Notes under the pieces: generated by a model | The model's database searches: none | Told to the model about the DNA's origin: nothing | The model's input: the letters and a program-made list of their open reading frames with translations, nothing else | Program-made: the position numbers and the translations under genes | Assembly (NCBI GenBank): GCA_016931365.1 | Contig: JAFGEY010000358.1 | Span: 1-17,059, forward strand | Origin: Anaerolineae bacterium | Lineage (GTDB): Bacteria > Chloroflexota > Anaerolineae > JAFGEY01 | Length of the DNA stretch: 17,059 nucleotides | Direction: 5' to 3' | Shown here: positions 1-17,059 of the stretch, piece after piece | Numbering within the stretch: position 1 is the stretch's first letter | How the letters are laid out: each line of letters opens with the position of its first letter

Positions 1-1125
1 ATGCTCACCGTCAACCTGGGTACGGGCACGCCCGAAGAAGCCCGCGACTGGGTAGAATACTGCAACTGCCCACCCGACACGCACATCGCCCAGATGCGCG
101 CCGAGAACGGCCATCCCGGCCCCTTTGGCGTCAAGCTGTGGTGCCTGGGCAACGAGATGGACGGCCCGTGGCAGCTCGGTCACGTCCCTGCCGACCAGTA
201 TGCGATTCGTGCGCAGCAGGCAGCCAAGATGATGAAAGACGTCGATCCTTCGCTCGAGTTGGTCGCCTGCGGTTCGTGCGGCATCGGCATGCCCACCTAT
301 ATGGAATGGGATCGCACCGTGCTCGATTATTTGGGCAACTTGGCCGACCACGTCAGCCTGCACCGCTACGTGGGCAACCACAACGGCGACACCGCCGATT
401 ACCTGGCCGTGACCGCCTCGATCGACCAACAGATCGAAGAAATGGATGCCGTCTGCCGCTTTGTGCAGGCCAAACGGCGCAGCAAGAAACGCGCTTACCT
501 TTGTTTCGACGAGTGGAACGTGTGGTATCGCGCGCGCGGCGGCGACGGCGGCGGCCAGTTTGCACCACATCTGCTCGAAGAGGTCTACAATCTGGAAGAC
601 GCGCTCGTCGTCGCCGGGTTCCTCAACAGTTTTATCCGCCACGCTGACGTGGTCAAGATCGCCAACATTGCCCAAATCGTCAACGTTATCGCTCCAATCA
701 TGACCCAGGGCGACAAGCTGCTGATCCAGTCGATTTTTTATCCGTTCGAGATGTTCAGCACGCGCCGCGAGGGCCTGGCACTGACGCAGATCATCGACGG
801 GCCATGTTACACCAGCGTTTCGTACGGCGAGGTGGCCTATGTGGACAGCAGCGCCATCTTGGGCGACGGTGTGCTACACGTCTTTTTGACCAATCGCAGC
901 CTAAACGAAGCCGCACCGGTCACAATTACCGTCGCCGACCACCCGATCAAAGCTCTGGACCGCGCTGAACTGCTCACCGGCCCTGAACCGCAGGCGGCCA
1001 ACACCTTTGAACAGCCTGGCCTGATCGCCGCGCACTCTTTTGACCAAGTCAAGATCGCCGAAGGGAGCGCGATGGCCGTCCTGCCGCCACTGTCCGTCGC
1101 TGCGATGACCTTCAAATTGATCTGA
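1..1125 (+). CDS. Alpha-L-arabinofuranosidase, GH51 family (5' partial)
   Basis: This enzyme would remove terminal alpha-L-arabinofuranosyl residues from arabinan, arabinoxylan or their oligosaccharides. The frame is open from base 1, and the visible 374 codons correspond to the catalytic barrel plus the C-terminal beta-sandwich of GH51. About 120-130 N-terminal residues of a usual ~500-residue enzyme lie outside the window, so the ATG at base 1 is probably an internal Met. The motif LGNEMDG (Glu at visible residue 52) matches the acid/base site of clan GH-A. The motif CFDEWNVWY (Glu at visible residue 171) matches the nucleophile. The tail, ending PLSVAAMTFKLI, is the typical last strand of the GH51 beta-domain. 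GH51 enzymes of this type are commonly intracellular; the N-terminus is missing, so this cannot be checked here. It is followed 59 nt later by a sulfatase, which suggests a shared glycan substrate. Confidence 0.93.
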   Translation: MLTVNLGTGTPEEARDWVEYCNCPPDTHIAQMRAENGHPGPFGVKLWCLGNEMDGPWQLGHVPADQYAIRAQQAAKMMKDVDPSLELVACGSCGIGMPTYMEWDRTVLDYLGNLADHVSLHRYVGNHNGDTADYLAVTASIDQQIEEMDAVCRFVQAKRRSKKRAYLCFDEWNVWYRARGGDGGGQFAPHLLEEVYNLEDALVVAGFLNSFIRHADVVKIANIAQIVNVIAPIMTQGDKLLIQSIFYPFEMFSTRREGLALTQIIDGPCYTSVSYGEVAYVDSSAILGDGVLHVFLTNRSLNEAAPVTITVADHPIKALDRAELLTGPEPQAANTFEQPGLIAAHSFDQVKIAEGSAMAVLPPLSVAAMTFKLI

Positions 1126-1131
1126 CGACTG

Positions 1132-1172
1132 CCTGGCGACGGCGGACCGCGGTCGGTGGTCCGCCGTCCAGG
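1132..1172. other. GC-rich intergenic hairpin between GH51 and sulfatase
   Basis: An 11-bp perfect inverted repeat (GACGGCGGACC at 1138-1148, GGTCCGCCGTC at 1158-1168) is extended by four more pairs (CCTG at 1132-1135 with CAGG at 1169-1172) across a 2-nt bulge. The loop is 9 nt. No T-tract follows, so it is not a standard intrinsic terminator. It could attenuate read-through, protect the upstream mRNA 3' end, or be a dispersed palindrome. The AAGGA Shine-Dalgarno of the sulfatase starts immediately after the stem. Confidence 0.6.
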
Positions 1173-1184
1173 AAAGGACGCCCG

Positions 1185-2588
1185 ATGAACGCACAAACAT
1201 CTCGCCCCAACATCGTCTTTTTCTTTACCGACGACCAGCGCTTTGACACTCTGCGCGCGTTGGGCAACAAACAGGTCCACACGCCGACGATGGACTCGTG
1301 GGTGCGTCGCGGCATGGCATTCACCCACGCCCACATTATGGGCGGCACCAGTGGCGCGGTCTGCATGCCCAGCCGGGCGATGCTGATGACCGGGCGCACC
1401 CTTTTTCACCTCCAGGCGGAAGGGCAAGAGATTCCCCCCGAGCACATCCTGTTCGGCGAAACCCTGCAAGCGGCGGGCTATCGCACCTTTGGCACCGGCA
1501 AATGGCACAACGGGCCGTCGTCGTACGCGCGCAGTTTCACCGACGGCGCTGAAATTTTCTTCGGCGGGATGGAAGACCACTGGAATGTGCCCGCCTGCGA
1601 TTTCGACCCTACAGGGCGCTATGAAACCATCCATCCCGCCGTGCGCAACACCTTTTACTCCAACGAGGTCGTCCAGCGTCGCTGCGACCACATCACGCCG
1701 GGCAAGCACTCCAGCGAACTGTTCTGCGACGCGGCGATCGACTTTATTGAAAACTATGACGCGGAGCAGCCCTTTTTCGCCTACATCTCGTTTATGGCCC
1801 CGCACGACCCGCGCACGATGCCCAAAAAGTGCCTCGCTATGTACGATCCCGACCAGATCGAGCTGCCGCCCAACTTTATGCCCGGACACCCCTTCGACAA
1901 TGGCGCGTTGGACATCCGCGACGAGTTGCTGGCCGCTCACCCGCGCAGCGAGGCCGAAATCCGCCGCCACATCGCCGAATACTATGCCATGATCACCCAC
2001 GCCGACGCGCAAATGGCCCGCGTGATCGAGGCGCTGGAAGCCAAGGGCGTGCTCGACGACACCGTCATCGTCTTTGCCGGCGACAACGGCCTGGCCCTCG
2101 GCCAGCACGGTCTGATGGGCAAGCAGAGTATGTACGAGCACAGCCTGCGCGTGCCGCTGGTCTTTTGCGGGCCGGGCATTCCACAAGGCAAAAAGAGCGA
2201 TGCGTTTTGTTACTTGTTTGATATTTACCCCACTTTATGTGACCTGATCAACGTTCCCTTGCCGGACACGGTCGAAGGACAGAGTTTGCTCCCAGTCTTT
2301 CTCGGAGAGAAATCTCTCCGAGAAAGCATGTATTTCGCCTACACCGGCCTGCACCGCTGCGTGCGCGATCGCCGCTTCAAATTGATCGAATATGCCGTGA
2401 ACGGCGAACGCACCACCCAGTTGTTCGACCTTGATCACGATCCCTGGGAGCTGCACAACCTGGTCGGCGATGCCGCCTATGCCCAAGCATTGGCTCGCCT
2501 GCGCGCCGAGCTGAAGCGTTACGGGCAGACGCTTGAGCAGCCCGACTATCATTTCACCCGCATGTTCTGGGACATCTGCCGGTTGTAA
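1185..2588 (+). CDS. Sulfatase (arylsulfatase family S1, Cys-type)
   Basis: This predicted sulfate-ester hydrolase has 467 residues, a normal size for family S1. It starts at an ATG preceded by AAGGA at 7-nt spacing. The N-terminal strand RPNIVFFFTDDQ (Asp16, Asp17) supplies calcium ligands. CMPSR (Cys60) is the C-x-P-x-R signature whose cysteine is converted to formylglycine by a separate FGE or anaerobic maturase; neither maturase is in the window. GDNG (Asp300, Asn301) is the second metal-binding segment. VEGQSLLPVF followed by a YFAYTG-like strand is typical of the C-terminal subdomain. There is no signal peptide, so it is predicted to be cytoplasmic. It lies between an arabinofuranosidase and a propeller protein in a same-strand cluster. 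The real substrate cannot be read from sequence; a sulfated plant or algal polysaccharide fragment is an inference. A 30-bp perfect palindrome lies inside the coding sequence at 2297-2326. Confidence 0.93.
   Translation: MNAQTSRPNIVFFFTDDQRFDTLRALGNKQVHTPTMDSWVRRGMAFTHAHIMGGTSGAVCMPSRAMLMTGRTLFHLQAEGQEIPPEHILFGETLQAAGYRTFGTGKWHNGPSSYARSFTDGAEIFFGGMEDHWNVPACDFDPTGRYETIHPAVRNTFYSNEVVQRRCDHITPGKHSSELFCDAAIDFIENYDAEQPFFAYISFMAPHDPRTMPKKCLAMYDPDQIELPPNFMPGHPFDNGALDIRDELLAAHPRSEAEIRRHIAEYYAMITHADAQMARVIEALEAKGVLDDTVIVFAGDNGLALGQHGLMGKQSMYEHSLRVPLVFCGPGIPQGKKSDAFCYLFDIYPTLCDLINVPLPDTVEGQSLLPVFLGEKSLRESMYFAYTGLHRCVRDRRFKLIEYAVNGERTTQLFDLDHDPWELHNLVGDAAYAQALARLRAELKRYGQTLEQPDYHFTRMFWDICRL
2297..2326. 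repeat. Perfect 30-bp palindrome inside sulfatase CDS
   Basis: The 14-nt arm CTTTCTCGGAGAGA at 2297-2310 is exactly complementary to TCTCTCCGAGAAAG at 2313-2326, with a 2-nt AA centre. The segment encodes the linker around LGEKSLRES of the sulfatase and does not break the frame. Perfect 14-bp arms inside a coding sequence are unusual. It could form a strong mRNA hairpin or be a domesticated small mobile palindrome. Confidence 0.85.
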
Positions 2589-2591
2589 CCG

Positions 2592-2633
2592 CCGACCGCC
2601 GACTGTTGACGGCTGACCGCTGAAGGCTAGCCG
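2592..2633. repeat. Degenerate 7-bp tandem repeat, about six units
   Basis: Consecutive heptamers read CCGACCG, CCGACTG, TTGACGG, CTGACCG, CTGAAGG and CTAGCCG, all close to C(T/C)GAC(C/G)G. The array starts four bases after the sulfatase stop codon and ends just before the upstream ATG (2639) of the next gene. It resembles short tandemly repeated heptamers known from some bacterial intergenic regions. No function can be assigned. Confidence 0.6.
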
Positions 2634-2653
2634 CAAGTATGAAAGGAAAACAA

Positions 2654-3793
2654 GTGAAGTTCAAATTCATCCCCCACATCATCGACACCTCACTGCCCGC
2701 TGGCTGCTATGCCCAGACCGCGCTGACCGACCTCGACAACGACGGTGTGCTCGAATACGTCGTCGGGCAGCAGTACGGCGCTATTTTCTGGTACAAATAT
2801 CACGCGCCGGATCGCTGGTCGCGCCACCTGCTGGGCAGTGATTCCCCCTCCGACGTTGGCGGCTGCGCGCTCGATGTAGACGGTGACGGCTGGATCGATT
2901 TTGTCGCTGGCGGGGCATGGTATCGAAACTCGCGGCAGGCGGACACACCTCTTGAGCGCATTGTCTTTGATCCCGACCTGCGCGGCGTGCACGACCTCTT
3001 TGCCGCCGACATCGACGGCGACGGGCGGGCCGAGATCGTGACCATGTCCGACCAGAACTCGCTGCGCTGGTACAAAATCCTCGCCGACCCGACCCAACCC
3101 TGGCCCAAGACCGAGATCGGCGCGCCGGTGCACGCCGGAGCCGCCGCCGGCGACCTCAATGGCAACGGTCACCTCGATGTGGTGCGCACCGACGTGTGGT
3201 TCGAGAACGTGTACGGCGACGGTACACAGTGGGTCGAGCACTCGATCGGGCCAAACACATACCCCCCGCCCGATTTCCAGCCCTATTTCGCCTTCAACGC
3301 CACACACGCTGTGGTCTGCGACGTGAACCGCAACGGCCACAACGACATTGTCTTTACCGACGCCGAGATCCCCGGCGGCAAAATCTGGTGGATGGAGAAC
3401 GTGGACGGCGACGGGCTGACCTGGCGGCGGCACGAGATTTACAACTGGGATGCGAAAAAAGAACCTCGCCGTGGCGCATACCACTCGCTGTACGTCGGCG
3501 ACCTGGACGGCGACGGCGACCTCGACCTGTTGACCTGTGAGATGGAGGCGGTCGGCGGAGATAAGCCGCCGCGCTGGTACATCTGGGAAAACGTCGATAG
3601 CGTGGGAGGCGCGTGGCAGGAACACATCATTTTCGACGGCAATCTCGGCGGCCACGCGGCCCAGGTCGGTGATGTGACCGGTAACGGCCTGCCCGATGTG
3701 ATCAGCAAACCGTGGCGCGCGCAGCCCGGCAACGCCGTCGGCGGCAAGAGCTATGTGGTGTTTTTGGAGAATGCAAGTGCCAACAGCGAATAG
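2654..3793 (+). CDS. FG-GAP/VCBS repeat beta-propeller protein
   Basis: This protein of about 379 residues contains seven aspartate-rich loops, one per predicted blade: DLDNDG, DVDGDG, DIDGDG, DLNGNG, DVNRNG, DLDGDGD and DVTGNG. The spacing is about 45-55 residues, consistent with a seven-bladed, calcium-binding FG-GAP/VCBS propeller. Such folds bind glycans or proteins, and some are lyases or hydrolases; no catalytic motif is recognisable here. I chose GTG at 2654 because AAAGGA lies 6 nt upstream. The in-frame ATG at 2639 would add five residues but has only a distant GAAGG. No signal peptide is seen, which is unusual because most VCBS proteins are exported. It sits between a sulfatase and a DUF4038-like glycosidase, so a role in binding or processing the same glycan is inferred. 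Confidence 0.85.
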   Translation: MKFKFIPHIIDTSLPAGCYAQTALTDLDNDGVLEYVVGQQYGAIFWYKYHAPDRWSRHLLGSDSPSDVGGCALDVDGDGWIDFVAGGAWYRNSRQADTPLERIVFDPDLRGVHDLFAADIDGDGRAEIVTMSDQNSLRWYKILADPTQPWPKTEIGAPVHAGAAAGDLNGNGHLDVVRTDVWFENVYGDGTQWVEHSIGPNTYPPPDFQPYFAFNATHAVVCDVNRNGHNDIVFTDAEIPGGKIWWMENVDGDGLTWRRHEIYNWDAKKEPRRGAYHSLYVGDLDGDGDLDLLTCEMEAVGGDKPPRWYIWENVDSVGGAWQEHIIFDGNLGGHAAQVGDVTGNGLPDVISKPWRAQPGNAVGGKSYVVFLENASANSE

Positions 3794-10055: not shown

Positions 10056-10817
10056 ATGTTCAAATACATAGCCGGTGAATTCGATACGCCCTTTCAATTG
10101 TTTGGGGTGGCTCACATTGGTGTTCTTTTATTTATCCTCGTTTATAATATATTTATGTCCATTGACCTCAAGCGGACCAAGATTCCCTGGCTGAATAAGC
10201 AGTTTCGCTATGCATTGGCCTTTTTGCTCATTTTTCAAGAGGTCTCGCTAAATGTGTGGTACATCCTCACTCATCAGTGGGACATCGGTGCGTCATTGCC
10301 GATCCACTTGTGCGGTGCGGCGCTGATCCTCTCGGCGATCATGCTGGTTACGGACAGTTATGCGATCTTTGAGATCACTTATTTTTGGGGCTTTGCCGGG
10401 GCCACGCAAGCGCTGCTCACGCCAGACATCGCCGCTTACGGCTTTCCGCACTATCGTTTTCTCCAATTTTTCATCTCGCATGGCGCCATTGTCACCGCCA
10501 GCGCCTACATGACCTTTGTGCGCGGCTATCGGCCTACCTGGAAGTCGTACTGGAAGGCGCTAGCCGTGACCCTGCTCTATGCCATCCCCATTGCCGGGTT
10601 TAACTGGCTGGTGGGCGGCAACTATTTGTTCATCTGCCGAAAACCGCCCACCGCTTCCCTGCTGGATGTGATGGGGCCGTGGCCGTGGTACTTGATCCCC
10701 CTGTTTTTCGTAGCGATAGCAATATTTGCGCTATTTTATTCTCCGTATGCGATCAAGGACTGGCTGGCGGTGCGCAAGCCGGCCTCACAAACCGTCTCGA
10801 CTTTGGAGGATCGGTGA
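10056..10817 (+). CDS. YwaF / TIGR02206-family integral membrane protein
   Basis: This membrane protein of 253 residues has about six to seven hydrophobic helices. The signature segments are those of the YwaF/TIGR02206 family: LPIHLCGAAL in the third helix region, TQALLTPDIAAYGFPHYRFLQFFISHG, and near the C-terminus YLFICRKPPTASLLD followed by MGPWPWYLIP. The biochemical function of the family is not known; distant similarity to TMEM164 acyltransferase-like proteins has been noted for it. The GAGAGGAGA ribosome-binding site is 10-11 nt from the ATG, rather far. It lies between trmFO and a YhaM-like nuclease gene without an obvious functional connection, and its base composition is more AT-rich than the glycan block. 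Confidence 0.88.
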   Translation: MFKYIAGEFDTPFQLFGVAHIGVLLFILVYNIFMSIDLKRTKIPWLNKQFRYALAFLLIFQEVSLNVWYILTHQWDIGASLPIHLCGAALILSAIMLVTDSYAIFEITYFWGFAGATQALLTPDIAAYGFPHYRFLQFFISHGAIVTASAYMTFVRGYRPTWKSYWKALAVTLLYAIPIAGFNWLVGGNYLFICRKPPTASLLDVMGPWPWYLIPLFFVAIAIFALFYSPYAIKDWLAVRKPASQTVSTLEDR

Positions 10818-10900: not shown

Positions 10901-11875
10901 ATGTCTCGTCTGACCGTCGCCGAACTGCGGCCTAACACCCAACTCAATAAAGCGCCTTTTTTGCTCGCCTCCCTTGATCCGGCGACTGACCGCAACGGCA
11001 GCCCTTACCTGAAAATGACCTTGCGCGACAAGACCGGCGACATCGAAGCGCGCTACTGGCGCGTGCCCGACGGCGTCGCCGAACGGATCAAGACCGGCTT
11101 TGGCGTACTGGTCAGCGGCCAAGTCACCGAGTATAAGGGACTGATCCAGATCGGCGTCACCGACATCCAGCCGGGCGAGCTGGATAATCCCGAAGATTTT
11201 CTGCCGATTGCCCGCCGCCCGCGCGAAGAAATGCTCGACGAATTGCAAAAACTGATCAGTAGCATCAAAAACCCGCATTTGAAAGCGTTGCTCAAAGAGG
11301 TATTAAGCGAAGGGGACTTTCAGCGGCAATTCCTCGTCGCCGCCGCGGCCAAGACGTATCATCATGCCTGTGTCGGCGGGCTGCTGGAGCACTCGCTGGA
11401 CGTGGTCAAGTTGATGCTGACCGAGGTTCGACGCTACCCCGAGATCGACCGCGACCTGGGGGCTACCGTCGCCCTGCTACACGACGTCGGCAAGGTAGAG
11501 AGCTATGCCTTTGGCGGCGATTTCGACATGACCGACGCTGGCAAGCTGCTCGGACACATCTATATGGGCGCGGCCCGCATCGAGCGAGCCATCGACCGCA
11601 TTGAGGGATTTCCGCCCGAGCTGAAACTGCGCGTCTTGCACGCCATTCTCGCCCACCATGGCGACCTGGACAAAGGCTCCCCCGTCACTCCACGGACGCC
11701 GGAAGCCATCGCCCTGCACTATGCCGACAACCTCGACGGCAGTCTGCGCGGCTGGTTTGACTATGTCAAAACCCAGGGCAGCACCGCCGCCTGGACTTTG
11801 CGCAGCCCAATGCACGGCGATGAGTTGTTTGTGGGAAGCGATCCTACGCTCAAATTGAGAGAGAATCCGCAATGA
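10901..11875 (+). CDS. 3'-5' exoribonuclease YhaM-like (OB-fold plus HD domain)
   Basis: This predicted cytoplasmic RNase of 324 residues trims RNA (and possibly single-stranded DNA) 3' ends. Residues 1-105 form the OB-fold (TVAELRPNT, YLKMTLRDKTGDIEARYW, GFGVLVSGQV). Residues ~130-300 form the metal-dependent HD domain. Metal ligands are His164 (GGLLEHS), His194-Asp195 (LLHDVGK), His247 and His252/253 (HAILAHHG), and the Asp of HYADNLDG. The AAGGAGA site five nt from the ATG fixes the start. The stop overlaps the start of the following DUF433 gene by four bases (ATGA), so the nuclease and the TA-like pair are translationally coupled. YhaM of Bacillus is the family reference, and the domain order matches. 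Confidence 0.93.
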   Translation: MSRLTVAELRPNTQLNKAPFLLASLDPATDRNGSPYLKMTLRDKTGDIEARYWRVPDGVAERIKTGFGVLVSGQVTEYKGLIQIGVTDIQPGELDNPEDFLPIARRPREEMLDELQKLISSIKNPHLKALLKEVLSEGDFQRQFLVAAAAKTYHHACVGGLLEHSLDVVKLMLTEVRRYPEIDRDLGATVALLHDVGKVESYAFGGDFDMTDAGKLLGHIYMGAARIERAIDRIEGFPPELKLRVLHAILAHHGDLDKGSPVTPRTPEAIALHYADNLDGSLRGWFDYVKTQGSTAAWTLRSPMHGDELFVGSDPTLKLRENPQ

Positions 11876-12114
11876 ATGAACTATTAAAGCGCATTTCTGT
11901 AGACCCAAACGTTTGTTTCGGCAAACCGTGCATACGCGGCACGCGCATCTGGGTTGCGCTGATTCTGGATTTTCTAGCCACAGGAATGACCATTGAAGAA
12001 ATTATCCAGGAATACCCACAACTAACGCCTCAAGATATCTATGCAGCCCTTGCCTATGGCGCAGAAATGAGCCGTGTCCGATTTGTCGAAATTCAAGCCG
12101 AGGCTGCGGCATGA
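11872..12114 (+). CDS. DUF433 domain protein, predicted antitoxin
   Basis: This 80-residue protein has the DUF433 signature ISVDPNVCFGKPCIRGTRI near its N-terminus, followed by helices (MTIEEIIQEYPQLTPQDIYAAL) that form a winged helix-turn-helix-like fold. DUF433 proteins typically precede DUF5615 PIN-like proteins and are treated as VapB-type antitoxins. Exactly that partner follows here through a 4-nt ATGA overlap. It also starts through an ATGA overlap with the upstream nuclease gene and has no separate promoter that I can see. Codon use is visibly more AT-rich than in its neighbours, consistent with acquisition. Confidence 0.9.
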   Translation: MNELLKRISVDPNVCFGKPCIRGTRIWVALILDFLATGMTIEEIIQEYPQLTPQDIYAALAYGAEMSRVRFVEIQAEAAA

Positions 12115-12479
12115 AATTCAAGCTGGATGAAAATCTGGGAACTAGAACGCAAAACCTGTTCCAGTCCGCTGGATTTGACATTGAAACAGTGCGCAACGAA
12201 AACCTTCAAGGCTGTTCCGATCTGCATTTATACCAAATCTGTTGTGCTGAACAACGATGTTTAATCACTTTGGACGTGGACTTTGCCGATATTATCCGTT
12301 TTCCGCCTGATCGTACACAAGGCATTGCCGTCATTCGTGTACCAAAAAATCCAAGCCTTGGCTTACTGGAACAACTGGTTCGCCAATTCTTGACTGCCTT
12401 GAGAGAGATGGATATCAAAGGTCAATTGTGGATTGTTGAAGTCGGACGCATTCGCGTACAGCAGTCCGAAACAATTTGA
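12111..12479 (+). CDS. DUF5615 PIN-like protein, predicted toxin
   Basis: This 122-residue protein matches the DUF5615/Mut7-C-like PIN fold. The N-terminal strand MKFKLDENLG contributes Asp6 and Glu7. The central LITLDVDFADI contributes Asp55, Asp57 and Asp60. These acidic residues are the expected metal-binding set of a PIN-type ribonuclease. IAVIRVPKN and the C-terminal LWIVEVGRIRV strands complete the fold. With the overlapping DUF433 gene it forms a compact toxin-antitoxin-like module, although nuclease toxicity is not established for most members. It lies 21 nt upstream of the receptor kinase gene, so some co-transcription is possible. Confidence 0.88.
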   Translation: MKFKLDENLGTRTQNLFQSAGFDIETVRNENLQGCSDLHLYQICCAEQRCLITLDVDFADIIRFPPDRTQGIAVIRVPKNPSLGLLEQLVRQFLTALREMDIKGQLWIVEVGRIRVQQSETI

Positions 12480-12500
12480 CTTTCATATTGGAGGTCAACT

Positions 12501-15500
12501 ATGGCCGATATGACCGGAAAAACACTAGGAAAATACCGTATTGTTGAGCGGCTGGGGCGGGGCGGCATGGCCGAAGTGTACAAAGCCTATCAGCCAGGGC
12601 TTGATCGCTATGTAGCGATCAAGCTGATGCATGGCTACCTGGCCGAAGACCCCGATTTCGTCGGTCGATTCCAGCGCGAGGCCAAGGCCATTGCTGCCCT
12701 GCACCACCCGCACATCGTTCAGGTGCACGATTTTGACATCGAAAGCGACGTGTATTATATGGTGCAGGAATACGTCGAAGGCGGCACACTCAAAGCCAGG
12801 TTGCAAGAGGCTCGCTCGACGAAACAACCAATCACGATTCAAGAGACGGTGCGCATCCTGTCTGCCATTTGTGACGCCGTCGACTATGCCCACCAGCAGG
12901 GGCGCGTCCACCGCGATATCAAACCGGACAACATCATGTTCGACGCGCGCGATCGCCCGGTGCTCACCGATTTTGGCATCGCCAGCATCGTCGGGGGAAC
13001 GCGTTTTACTGCCACCGGCGCGATGGTCGGCACGCCAGCCTACATGTCACCAGAGCAGGGCAAGGGCTATCCCGGCGACGAGCGCAGCGACGTCTACTCG
13101 CTGGGCGTCGTGCTGTACGAGATGGTCACTGGACGCATCCCCTTTGACGCAGACACGCCTTTTGCCGTGGTGCTCAAGCACGTCAACGAGCCGCTGCCAA
13201 TGCCGCGCACGCTCAACCCCGATGTGCCTTACAGCATCGAACGGGTGATCCTCAAGGCACTGGCCAAAGACCCCGCCGACCGCTACCAGCGTGCCTCTGA
13301 CCTGTCGCACGCGTTGCAAGATATGCTTGAAGAAGAAACATCTCCGGCCTGGGAGACACCGCCCATCATCGAACAAGCCATGCAGGCAGTGACGCCGCCG
13401 CCTTCGATTCAAAAGCCGGGTACAGAGATTGCCCTGCCCGTCGAACCACCCATCGCTGCCATCCCGCCAGATGCGATGACTCCACCGCCTGTAGAAGCTG
13501 TCGGGGTTGACACGGCCAAAACAAGCGAGAAGAAAAAGCGCCCGGCCTGGCTGTGGATCGTCGGCGCAGTGGCGGGCGTAGCACTGTTGTTTTGTTGCAC
13601 GCTGGGCGGCCTCAATATGCTCAAGCGCATCCGCGAACAGCGCGCGCTCAAAGAAGGGACAGTTGTGGTTACGCCCGGCGCGGCAGCACTCACCCCAACC
13701 AGCAAGGATTTGACCAGACAAGCCGTGTCGGCCGCGCCGGAACCCGTCGGCCAAGTGCAAGCCCTGATCGATCAGGGCTTTGAGATGTTGGGCGATGAAT
13801 GTTTGGGTGATCTAGATCGCGCACTGGCGCTGTTTGAGCAGGCCCTGGCCCAAGACGCCAACGCCGCCCGCGCCCATGCGGGGCAAGCGTTCAGCCAGTT
13901 CTGTCAGGGCTACAACAACCCGGCGTTGGACAGCGCCAACCGCGCCATCGAACTGGCCCCGGATGACCCGCTGGGCTATTACGTGCGCGGGCGCATCCAG
14001 GCCGATCAAGAAAAAGCCGAGGAGGCGGTAGCCGATTTCAGCGCCGCCATCGAACGCGACCCCGGCTTTGCCAGAGCCTATTACCGACGCGCGCTTCTCT
14101 ATGTCTGGCCGTTGGAAGCCTATGACGAGGCCTTTGCCGACCTGAACCAGGCCATCGCCCTCGCGCCAGAAATGTCTGTCGCCTACCTGGAGCGCGGCAA
14201 CCTGCACCTGTGGCACAAACAGGACCCCCAGGCCGCGCTGGCCGATTTCAACCGCTTTATCGAGTTAGAGCCGGATAACCCGCAGGGCTATGCCGAGCGC
14301 GCGGTGGTCTATGAAAACCTGCAAGATTATGCCCAGGCTGCTGTCGAGTTGACGCTGGCCCTCGAACGCGCGCCGGAAGAGGACAAACCCGCTTATTATT
14401 TCAACCGTGGGCGAGACTATCAATTCAGCGGGCAACTGGACAAGGCCATCGACGACTATGACCAGTCTATCGCGCAAAGCCCCGACGTGGAAGCCTATTT
14501 CTGGCGTGGGATGGCCTACTATCAAACCGAAAACAACGAGGCAGCGCTGGCCGATTTCGACCAGGTGCTGCTCCTGGGCTGGGAAGGCCGCGAAGGAGCC
14601 GCCCATCACGCCAAAGGCTGGATTTTTGCCCGCCAGGGCAACTTTGAGCAAGCCATCGCCGCTTACGATCAGGCCATCGAATATGATTTTGATGACTATG
14701 CCTGGCCCTTTTTCATCGACACCCACCCACTGCTCGACCGGGCGCGCGCCTACCGCGCGCTAGAGCAGTACGAGCGCGCGCTGGACGATCTGAACGCACT
14801 GATCGAGGACGAGGGCTACGATGGGTGGGCATTGGCCTACCTGGAGCGCGCTCTCACCTATCGGGCGATGGGCCAGCGCCTCAAAGCGGTGCAAGACCTG
14901 CGCCAGGCCTGGGAACTGGCCGACCGGCAGGAACTACGCGATGAGATCGAGCGGCTGCTTGCGGAGACTCAAGAGGGCGGGCAGCCCCAAGAGCCGACGA
15001 CGGTCGACTGCCGCAGCGCCGACGTGTTTTGCGTGGGGATGGTTTCGACTGAGACCGGCATCAACGATTATGGTTTCAACTATTACACCTGGCAGGGCGT
15101 CCTGCAAGCCGAAGCCGAACTGGGTGCCGTGGTCAGCTACTCTGAACCTGCCGATGCGAGCCAGTTTGTGGCGCACATCACCGAATTTGCCGAGGCCGGC
15201 TATGATGTGATCGTCACTGTTGGTTGGACACAATACGAGGCTACACATATCGTTGCCGCTGCCTATGGCACGGACAGTGTCTACATTGCCGTCGATCAAT
15301 ACCAGGCAGCCGAAGAATATCTGGCTAATGTCGTCGGCCTGATCTTTCCCGAAGACCAGGCCGGATTCCTGGCCGGCGCGCTGGCCTCGATGATGAGCAA
15401 GACCGGCATCATCGGCGCGGTGCTGGGACCGGATACCGTGCCGCCGGTGTGGCGATACGGCGAAGGGTTTTACGAGGGCGCAGCCTATATCGATCCCGAT

Positions 15501-15965
15501 ATTGACGTGTTGATGGCCTATTATGATGGCGATATAAGCCAGGCTTTCGTTGATCCAGACTGGGGCTACGACGTTGCGGTTGAGATGATCCAAGAAGATG
15601 CCGACGTCATTTTTGCCGCCGCCGGCCCGACCGGCGTCGGTGCGCTGCGCGCCTGCGTCGACGAGGATGTGTACGCCATCGGCGTGGACGTCGATCAATA
15701 TGACACCGTGCCGGAAGCGCAAGGCGTGCTGCTGACCAGCGCGATCAAAGACCTCGGTCCAAGCATCTTTGAATTGATCCGCCTGGCTTATGAGGGGCAG
15801 TTTCCGGGCGACAGCAACTATGTGGGACGGGTCGGGCTTGCGCCCTTTCACGTTCTGGAAGACGAGGTGCCAGACGAGTACGTAGAACGATTGGCAGAAA
15901 TTGTCCGACAGCTCCACGAAGGCAGCTTGAGCACCAATGTGCCCACGGCCAAGCCAGGTGAATAG
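12501..15965 (+). CDS. Transmembrane receptor-like Ser/Thr kinase with TPR and BMP (PnrA-like) sensor domain
   Basis: This 1154-residue protein has a consensus GGAGGT five nt before the ATG. Residues ~12-275 are a complete PASTA-type-lineage (Hanks) kinase: glycine loop GRGGMAEVY, Lys41 (VAIK), HRDIKPDN (Asp139), DFG (Asp157) and SPE (183-185). A Pro-rich linker (~285-340) and KKKR lead into one membrane helix (~350-372). Outside the membrane follow about eleven TPRs (~420-825). Residues ~838-1140 are a Bmp/PnrA-type solute-binding domain: the GINDYGFN segment (853-860) and GVDVDQYD (1061-1068) match the nucleoside and ribose-binding parts of PnrA. The likely topology is kinase inside, TPR-BMP outside, making a one-protein receptor. 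The ligand is inferred to be a nucleoside or similar solute. The kinase targets are unknown, and no phosphatase or ABC permease is adjacent. Confidence 0.92.
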   Translation: MADMTGKTLGKYRIVERLGRGGMAEVYKAYQPGLDRYVAIKLMHGYLAEDPDFVGRFQREAKAIAALHHPHIVQVHDFDIESDVYYMVQEYVEGGTLKARLQEARSTKQPITIQETVRILSAICDAVDYAHQQGRVHRDIKPDNIMFDARDRPVLTDFGIASIVGGTRFTATGAMVGTPAYMSPEQGKGYPGDERSDVYSLGVVLYEMVTGRIPFDADTPFAVVLKHVNEPLPMPRTLNPDVPYSIERVILKALAKDPADRYQRASDLSHALQDMLEEETSPAWETPPIIEQAMQAVTPPPSIQKPGTEIALPVEPPIAAIPPDAMTPPPVEAVGVDTAKTSEKKKRPAWLWIVGAVAGVALLFCCTLGGLNMLKRIREQRALKEGTVVVTPGAAALTPTSKDLTRQAVSAAPEPVGQVQALIDQGFEMLGDECLGDLDRALALFEQALAQDANAARAHAGQAFSQFCQGYNNPALDSANRAIELAPDDPLGYYVRGRIQADQEKAEEAVADFSAAIERDPGFARAYYRRALLYVWPLEAYDEAFADLNQAIALAPEMSVAYLERGNLHLWHKQDPQAALADFNRFIELEPDNPQGYAERAVVYENLQDYAQAAVELTLALERAPEEDKPAYYFNRGRDYQFSGQLDKAIDDYDQSIAQSPDVEAYFWRGMAYYQTENNEAALADFDQVLLLGWEGREGAAHHAKGWIFARQGNFEQAIAAYDQAIEYDFDDYAWPFFIDTHPLLDRARAYRALEQYERALDDLNALIEDEGYDGWALAYLERALTYRAMGQRLKAVQDLRQAWELADRQELRDEIERLLAETQEGGQPQEPTTVDCRSADVFCVGMVSTETGINDYGFNYYTWQGVLQAEAELGAVVSYSEPADASQFVAHITEFAEAGYDVIVTVGWTQYEATHIVAAAYGTDSVYIAVDQYQAAEEYLANVVGLIFPEDQAGFLAGALASMMSKTGIIGAVLGPDTVPPVWRYGEGFYEGAAYIDPDIDVLMAYYDGDISQAFVDPDWGYDVAVEMIQEDADVIFAAAGPTGVGALRACVDEDVYAIGVDVDQYDTVPEAQGVLLTSAIKDLGPSIFELIRLAYEGQFPGDSNYVGRVGLAPFHVLEDEVPDEYVERLAEIVRQLHEGSLSTNVPTAKPGE

Positions 15966-15996: not shown

Positions 15997-17059
15997 ATGC
16001 CGAATCGACCCAACATCCTCTATCTTCACTCGCACGACACCGGACGCTACGTCCAGCCCTACGGCTATGCCGTGCCCACGCCCAACATGCAAAAACTGGC
16101 CGAGCAGGGCGTGCTGTTCCGGCAGTGTTTTTGCGCCGGGCCAACCTGCTCGCCGAGCCGGGCCGCGCTGCTCACCGGCATGTATCCCCACGCCTGCGGC
16201 ATGACCGGCCTGGCCCATCGCGGCTGGAGCCTCAACGATTACGGCCAACACATCGTCCACACCTTGAAAGAGGCGGGCTATTATACGGCGCTCTTTGGCA
16301 CCCAGCACGTCGCTCCGCATGCCCGCATCGACGAGATTGGCTACGACCGGGTCTCGCCCGACGGCAGCGCCCAGGAACGCACCCTGGCGGCAATCGACTT
16401 TCTGACTCACGCCCCGCCGCAGCCCTTTTTCATCTCGGTGGGCTATTCGGAGACGCACCGCCGCTTCCACCCCGCCGAACCCGAGATCGGCGGCCCGGCC
16501 GAGGACGAGCGCTACTGCCGCCCGCCCGCGCCCCTGCCCGACACGCCCGAAACCCGCCGCGACATGGCCGAGTTCGTCGCCAGCGCGCGCATCCTCGACG
16601 GCTGCTACGGCCAGGTCTTGGATGCGCTCGACCGCGCCGGATTATCCGAAAACACGCTGGTCATCTGCACCACCGATCACGGCATTGCCTTCCCAGGCAT
16701 GAAATGCAACCTCACCGACCACGGCATCGGTGTGCTGCTGATCGTGCGCGGGCCGGGCGGTTTCGAGGGCGGTCAGGTGATCGATGCGCTGGTCTCGCAC
16801 GTCGACCTGTTCCCGACCCTCTGCGACCTACTGGACATCGCCCCGCCGGCGTGGCTGCAAGGCCGGTCGATGATACCCTTTATGCGCGGCCAGGCCGGGT
16901 CCATCCGCGACGAGGTGTTTGCCCAGGTGACCTACCACGCCGCCTACGAGCCGCAACGCTGCGTGCGCACCGCGCGCTACAAATACATCAGCCGCTTTGA
17001 CGCGCGCGAAAGGGCGGTGCTGCCCAACTGCGACGACAGCCTGAGCAAGGACGTGTGGC
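15997..17059 (+). CDS. Sulfatase, divergent S1 type (3' partial)
   Basis: The frame is open for 354 codons to the window end, and the C-terminus is missing. The ATG has AGGAG eight nt upstream and starts 31 nt after the kinase stop, so the two genes may be co-transcribed. CSPSR (Cys51) in AGPTCSPSRAALLTG is the formylglycine signature. The N-terminal metal segment is HSHDTGRY instead of the usual TDDQ type, and the second metal segment is TTDHGIAF instead of DNG. This marks a subgroup different from the sulfatase at 1185. HVDLFPTLCDLLDI and RTARYKYI are typical C-terminal sulfatase segments. No signal peptide is seen, so a cytoplasmic site is predicted. The substrate is unknown. Confidence 0.92.
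   Translation, partial: MPNRPNILYLHSHDTGRYVQPYGYAVPTPNMQKLAEQGVLFRQCFCAGPTCSPSRAALLTGMYPHACGMTGLAHRGWSLNDYGQHIVHTLKEAGYYTALFGTQHVAPHARIDEIGYDRVSPDGSAQERTLAAIDFLTHAPPQPFFISVGYSETHRRFHPAEPEIGGPAEDERYCRPPAPLPDTPETRRDMAEFVASARILDGCYGQVLDALDRAGLSENTLVICTTDHGIAFPGMKCNLTDHGIGVLLIVRGPGGFEGGQVIDALVSHVDLFPTLCDLLDIAPPAWLQGRSMIPFMRGQAGSIRDEVFAQVTYHAAYEPQRCVRTARYKYISRFDARERAVLPNCDDSLSKDVW

Follow-up and report, generated by a model that had tools for sequence, protein, structure and literature searches.

A predicted receptor Ser/Thr kinase with a BMP-type solute-binding domain behind a TPR stalk in an Anaerolineae bacterium

A kinase, TPRs and a BMP domain in one open frame

Analysis of a 17,059-nucleotide stretch of DNA from an Anaerolineae bacterium (contig JAFGEY010000358.1; referred to here as the window) revealed a gene for a candidate receptor kinase, in which a Ser/Thr protein kinase, a single transmembrane (TM) helix, a block of TPRs and a BMP/PnrA-like solute-binding domain follow one another (Table 1). 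An initial annotation, made from the sequence alone, had proposed this one-polypeptide architecture. Our results agree with it: the frame is uninterrupted, Pkinase, TPR families and PF02608 were all matched, the kinase, TPR and BMP folds were recovered by an AlphaFold model and Foldseek, and five relatives have the same domain order. The initial annotation had also named three observations that would speak against the fusion, namely a lack of any BMP match past residue 838, a missing membrane helix and a junction made by misassembly. We found a BMP match past that residue, the helix, and the junction in five proteins from other contigs.

Those five full-length relatives, all from other contigs, align with the window protein end to end at 57–77% identity. 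G+C content at third codon positions is even along the frame (0.64–0.76 in blocks of 100 codons). Because of the relatives, an assembly or frame artefact fusing unrelated genes is almost certainly not the explanation; the even composition also argues against it, and no supporting point was found.

The kinase domain is PknB-like. Its catalytic residues Lys41, Asp139 (HRD) and Asp157 (DFG) are complete, as initially annotated, and are invariant in the window protein and its five full-length relatives and in all 24 rows of alignment A2. Of the 57 kinase-BMP fusions whose kinase match is complete, 56 show three simple catalytic patterns; the exception, P0050, does not fit the lysine pattern. Thr170 and Thr172 lie in the activation loop and are, we assume by analogy, phosphorylated. 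StkP and PknB are the nearest solved kinase structures, and Foldseek paired the kinase part of the model with PknB at a TM-score on target of 0.80–0.91. The positions of PknB R10, L33 and D76, which we take to be kinase dimer positions, are held by K11, L34 and D77, all invariant across the six full-length proteins.

Assignment to two known kinase groups was tried and rejected. The PASTA-kinase model NF033483 gave 373.4 bits, below its cut-off of 450, and no PASTA family appears in the Pfam listing of the protein. The StpK7 model NF052427 matched the kinase part only, at 227.9 bits against a cut-off of 900. In PADLOC, 34 families matched the protein, and for all of the 25 listed the best stretch falls within residues 3–363; the antiphage-kinase label PD-T4-6 was not adopted, as the matches listed span the kinase and membrane end only.

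The model, built on a 24-row alignment, has a mean predicted local distance difference test score (pLDDT) of 84, with low-confidence linkers at residues 281–349 and 382–416. It places a helix at residues 350–383, covering the one hydrophobic stretch, so the annotated membrane helix is present. Between residues 418 and 825 it contains 23 helices, which we interpret as 11 TPR hairpins plus a capping helix, in support of the earlier count of about 11 TPRs. The TPR part pairs with 1w3b in Foldseek (0.88).

Table 1. Features of the window discussed in the text
Feature	Position	Strand	Basis or remark
TMEM164-family membrane protein	10056-10817	+	PF14808, E 2.7e-57
DUF433 gene	11872-12114	+	Upstream of kinase gene
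DUF5615 (PIN-like) gene	12111-12479	+	Overlaps DUF433 gene; directly upstream of kinase gene
GGAGG, ribosome-binding-site-like	12490..12494	+	Six bases 5' of ATG; sequence reading
Whole gene	12501..15965	+	Single open frame; 1154-residue kinase-TM-TPR-BMP protein
Protein kinase domain, residues 12-268	12534..13304	+	Pfam Pkinase, E 5.3e-49
Juxtamembrane linker, disordered, residues 281-349	13341..13547	+	pLDDT <50
Single TM helix, residues 353-371	13557..13613	+	Hydropathy and model
TPR superhelix, residues 418-825	13752..14975	+	Several Pfam TPR families and model
BMP/PnrA-like solute-binding domain, about residues 839-1140	15015..15920	+	Pfam and BMP-only model
Pocket segment, residues 853-860 (D856, F859, N860)	15057..15080	+	BmpA/BmpD mapping
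Pocket segment, residues 1061-1068 (V1062, D1063)	15681..15704	+	BmpA/BmpD mapping
Sulfatase gene	from ~15997, runs off window		Downstream of kinase gene

The BMP pocket and its probable ligand

The Pfam family Bmp (PF02608) matched residues 846–1103 (E 4.3e-39; 134.7 bits against a cut-off of 24.1). Pocket residues were mapped from the BmpA contacts and BmpD Asn28 (PMC13325309) through a HMMER alignment whose offset was checked at 11/11 positions. Nine of the 11 mapped residues are identical to BmpA/BmpD: D24=D856, F27=F859, N28=N860, D98=D932, F176=F1016, A200=A1040, V224=V1062, D225=D1063 and K242=K1083. The other two are changed (I147 to V980 and F151 to W984). The PnrA-like ligand segments noted initially, 853–860 and 1061–1068, are thus kept, with five of these residues inside them. 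BmpA F27 and F176 have been described as essential for thymidine binding (PMC13325309).

The pocket is strongly conserved among fused BMPs. D856, F859, D932 and D1063 occur in 54/54 fused BMPs and N860, F1016 and K1083 in 53/54, the window's included (three long tandem repeats were dropped before the count). For the 48 fused rows that do not belong to the window's subfamily, identity to the window averaged 0.894 at the pocket versus 0.482 over 282 columns (0/20,000 random sets). This rules out a degenerate BMP domain.

Our best guess, on sequence grounds, is that the ligand is nucleoside-like, because nine of 11 mapped pocket residues match BmpA/BmpD and conservation at the pocket far exceeds that of the remaining domain. 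A BMP-only model ranked four nucleoside binders first, Lbp (7x0r), BmpD (6shu), TmpC (2fqw) and pneumococcal PnrA (6yag/6y9u/6yab), and the C-terminal part of the whole-chain model paired with 7x0r (0.76) and 2fqw (0.74). A shared predicted fold with nucleoside-binding proteins is no proof of the ligand; the guanosine of Lbp was itself a density fit in a crystal grown without added sugar (PMC9601137). The same receptor might hold a vitamin, a purine-like xenobiotic or a sugar in its pocket. We regard this as unlikely but worth keeping in view: the 54 fused BMPs hardly vary in their aromatic pair or their Asp/Asn/Lys set, and the top-ranking structure entries are those in which a nucleoside is named.

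Two pocket positions differ in residue use between the fused BMPs and 79 free, tandem or other BMPs, a set that includes fragments maybe derived from fusions (e.g. P0271). Trp at the BmpA Phe151 position (W984) was found in 43/54 fused BMPs versus 19/79 others, 46 of which have Val, and Cys at position 1040 in 30/54 versus 4/79. These positions may mark a ligand preference common to the fused receptors; shared descent would fit equally.

Relatives, other outputs and neighbouring genes

Three protein searches, each keeping its best 120, gave 321 proteins including the window's; the searches were aimed at these domains, and the counts are not frequencies. The BMP-part search was limited to proteins of 0.55–1.75 times the length (3888 candidates) and found 182 at E ≤1e-3. 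Among the best 120 of these 182 matches, five besides the window protein share the kinase-TM-TPR-BMP order, and 26 more have a kinase and BMP without a matching TPR block. Kinase and BMP matches are joined in 62 of the 321 proteins, which makes the initial statement that BMP domains are normally free lipoproteins too narrow. A simple lipoprotein was ruled out for the window protein, as its N-terminus is the kinase and carries no lipoprotein signal. Some kinase-BMP proteins have a second binding domain (Peripla_BP_6 in P0049, SBP_bac_3 in P0044, SBP_bac_8 in P0050), and P0006 is annotated by its transporter half alone, as "BMP family ABC transporter substrate-binding protein".

Other arrangements were seen in the same set. 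P0002–P0005, P0008, P0009, P0012–P0016 and others are proteins of about 660 residues with two tandem BMP matches behind an N-terminal hydrophobic stretch, and some such proteins carry Chloroflexota or Anaerolineae in their names. Most of P0070–P0120 (about 767 residues) are near-identical, with Peripla_BP_6 and BMP behind a signal-like start; P0109 is named Actinomycetota. Many of P0190–P0230 have two tandem kinase matches before the hydrophobic helix, and many have PD40/WD40-like, FGE-sulfatase or Peripla_BP_6 matches.

Kinase and TPRs without BMP were matched in 66 of the 321 proteins, at up to 66% identity over 98% of residues 1–838 (P0121), so the TPR-kinase chassis must have some function without the BMP sensor. 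The true input could then be an outside protein partner of the TPR stalk, with the BMP domain as accessory or tether; the window kinase sits among BMP-less TPR kinases in the tree, and, according to an excerpt of PMC11032199, some Planctomycetota commonly have single-span kinases with TPR arrays outside. We consider this improbable, as many proteins have the kinase-TM-BMP order with no matching TPR block, and an inert tether would not keep so strongly constrained a pocket.

BMP trees were built from 136 of 271 rows left after near-copies were dropped, and from a separate chosen 48-row set. In both, the six kinase-TPR-BMP proteins form one clade (approximate likelihood-ratio test 95; 100/97 in the 48-row set). 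The kinase tree used 82 of 171 kinase rows, near-copies dropped and, for the 48 rows lacking both TPR and BMP, only every third id considered; a separate 36-row set was also chosen. Here the six kinases were placed among TPR kinases without BMP. In approximately unbiased (AU) tests on the kinase tree, neither a single clade of all BMP-bearing kinases (p-AU 0.115) nor one of the six kinase-TPR-BMP kinases (p-AU 0.095) was rejected, and so these tests do not decide between gain and loss of BMP, or between single and multiple kinase-BMP joinings. A scan of genome contigs found 79 loci, mostly Gemmatimonadota, every best match being in the kinase half (residues 2–433); a PF02608 search in the single genome behind one of these, L056, found no match.

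BMP sensors were also found on other candidate outputs. P0053 (751 residues) has a TIR domain before a hydrophobic helix and then BMP; P0052 (847 residues) and P0268 (849 residues) have a caspase-like domain in the same place. The latter two retain SGHG and DCCNSG, which presumably hold the caspase catalytic pair. In the BMP tree these TIR- and caspase-joined sensors fall among the kinase-fused BMPs. With 48 chosen rows, and groups chosen after the first tree had been seen, a clade of kinase-fused BMPs alone was rejected (p-AU 0.00017) and a clade of all TM-fused BMPs was not (p-AU 0.52).

Around the kinase gene, positions 1–3793 and 15997–17058 of the window carry an arabinofuranosidase C-terminal domain, two sulfatases and an FG-GAP protein, which suggests polysaccharide breakdown, judging from gene content. 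The DUF433-DUF5615 arrangement resembles a toxin-antitoxin pair, and the name TMEM164 presumably points to an animal protein family. A promoter and terminator scan gave a result near chance, and a tRNA scan found none. No ABC permease or ATPase was found among the 14 other window genes scanned. BMP proteins are known as ABC transporter substrate-binding proteins (in the excerpt of PMC7093131), and the domain could in principle still serve an importer, the kinase reporting or tuning transport. We think this very unlikely given that gene content and a BMP domain that lacks its own lipoprotein start and is anchored behind the kinase, TM helix and TPR block.

Proposed signalling model and comparison with known systems

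Domain content, predicted folds, pocket conservation and recurrence of the architecture are observations; to these we add, by inference, topology, ligand class, dimerisation and sign of the response. We then read the protein, with a probability of about 0.62, as a single-pass receptor Ser/Thr kinase whose outside, TPR-borne BMP domain binds a nucleoside or nucleoside-like solute and relays this to the cytoplasmic kinase. The TM helix would lead to an extracellular superhelix of 11 hairpins with the two-lobed BMP domain at its far end. The solute would lie between the lobes, in an aromatic sandwich of F859 and F1016 with D856, N860, D932, D1063 and K1083 around it, and its binding would close them. 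Closure would alter receptor pairing through the TPR stalk and TM helix; the kinases would then dimerise in the manner of PknB and trans-autophosphorylate their activation loops, and the active kinase would phosphorylate its substrates. That ligand binding directly drives phosphorylation, as initially proposed, is plausible.

The topology in this receptor reading, with the kinase (residues 1–280) probably cytoplasmic and the TPR superhelix and BMP domain probably outside the cell, draws on the kinase's need for ATP and on the relatives, because the window helix has equal flanks. Among 56 fusions, basic residues around the helix are in excess on the kinase side in 41, in excess on the other side in seven and equal in eight. 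Both the TPR part and the BMP part carry a large negative charge (net −42 and −43).

Several points, besides the BMP-less chassis, weigh against the receptor reading. The window helix itself has five basic residues on either side. A hydrophobic 19-residue stretch lies between kinase and BMP in 56/56 fusions examined for one, by a hydropathy scan that picks the best stretch within the interval, without a formal control. The whole-chain predicted TM-score is 0.45, and while the domains are mostly confident their mutual placement is not predicted. Within the 24-row set, K11 and L34 fall below 90%, and D77 alone of the three positions is invariant. In the pocket, the TmpC base-contact loop Asp27/Ser28 reads T850/E851 and BmpA Phe151 is replaced by W984. 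BmpA Asp19, listed as another pocket residue, falls beyond the aligned part and was not counted; its counterpart in TmpC is Asp27, here T850. With these changes, base specificity could differ. The 79 free, tandem or other BMPs are equally conserved (0.878 at the pocket versus 0.450; 2/20,000 random sets), so pocket conservation indicates an intact binding site, not signalling.

The general kind of protein is already known, both as kinase and solute-binding domain fusions and as outside TPR arrays on single-span kinases. A solute-binding domain on a Ser/Thr kinase has precedents: MSMEG_1200 and a further 260 proteins in InterPro carry both in a single polypeptide (Bhattacharyya et al. 2018, PMC6069109, in excerpt). 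The window protein is similar to MSMEG_1200/StpK7 in this respect, with a membrane helix between the domains and intact kinase motifs; it differs in its BMP-type sensor on 11 TPRs, although the further 260 may include BMP sensors. In M. smegmatis, StpK7 has been linked with susceptibility to phage (review PMC13355554). Among experimentally studied systems the closest analogy is GlnH-GlnX-PknG, where control of a Ser/Thr kinase by a periplasmic solute-binding protein, via a membrane protein and TPRs, has been proposed (PMC6069109, PMC8546545, PMC9769921). There the parts are three separate proteins, with PknG on the cytoplasmic face and its TPRs inside; and unlike rubredoxin-bearing PknG, the window protein has no rubredoxin family in its Pfam listing.

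The PASTA kinases PknB, StkP and Stk1 share the kinase fold, juxtamembrane linker, single TM helix and external part, but the window protein has no PASTA match. TmpC, BmpD, BmpA and Lbp share the BMP fold and most pocket residues, but are separate secreted or lipid-anchored proteins, whereas the window BMP forms the distal end of a kinase chain. In single-span kinases, TPR domains are reported to lie mostly outside (PMC11032199), and the Planctomycetota kinases have the kinase-TM-TPR order with TPRs predicted outside; the excerpt of PMC11032199 mentions no solute-binding domain in them. We found no description of BMP-kinase proteins in the largely open-access literature covered, where none of the searches targeted BMP-TIR or BMP-caspase proteins. 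Three things seem to be new: a kinase-TPR chassis that bears a BMP sensor, the large number of kinase-BMP fusions, and the presence of same-lineage BMPs on TIR (one protein) and caspase-like (two proteins) domains.

More tentatively, and at a strength that leaves it rather doubtful, these proteins could be modular nucleoside receptors, in which one outside BMP lineage and a single TM helix serve swappable outputs (kinase with or without TPRs, TIR, caspase-like). They would possibly sense lysis of kin or prey, because dying neighbours leak extracellular nucleosides; a danger-sensing role akin to purinergic danger sensing is our conjecture. If this is true, the kinase versions would steer metabolism or defence and the TIR and caspase versions self-destruction, and a sensor shared by the three would allow guesses at what the TIR and caspase effectors respond to. 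What stimulates bacterial Ser/Thr kinases has been called an outstanding question (PMC6069109). Here a sensor family whose ligands can be guessed with the guidance of crystal structures lies on the same chain as the kinase, which makes the coupling of ligand to phosphorylation directly testable.

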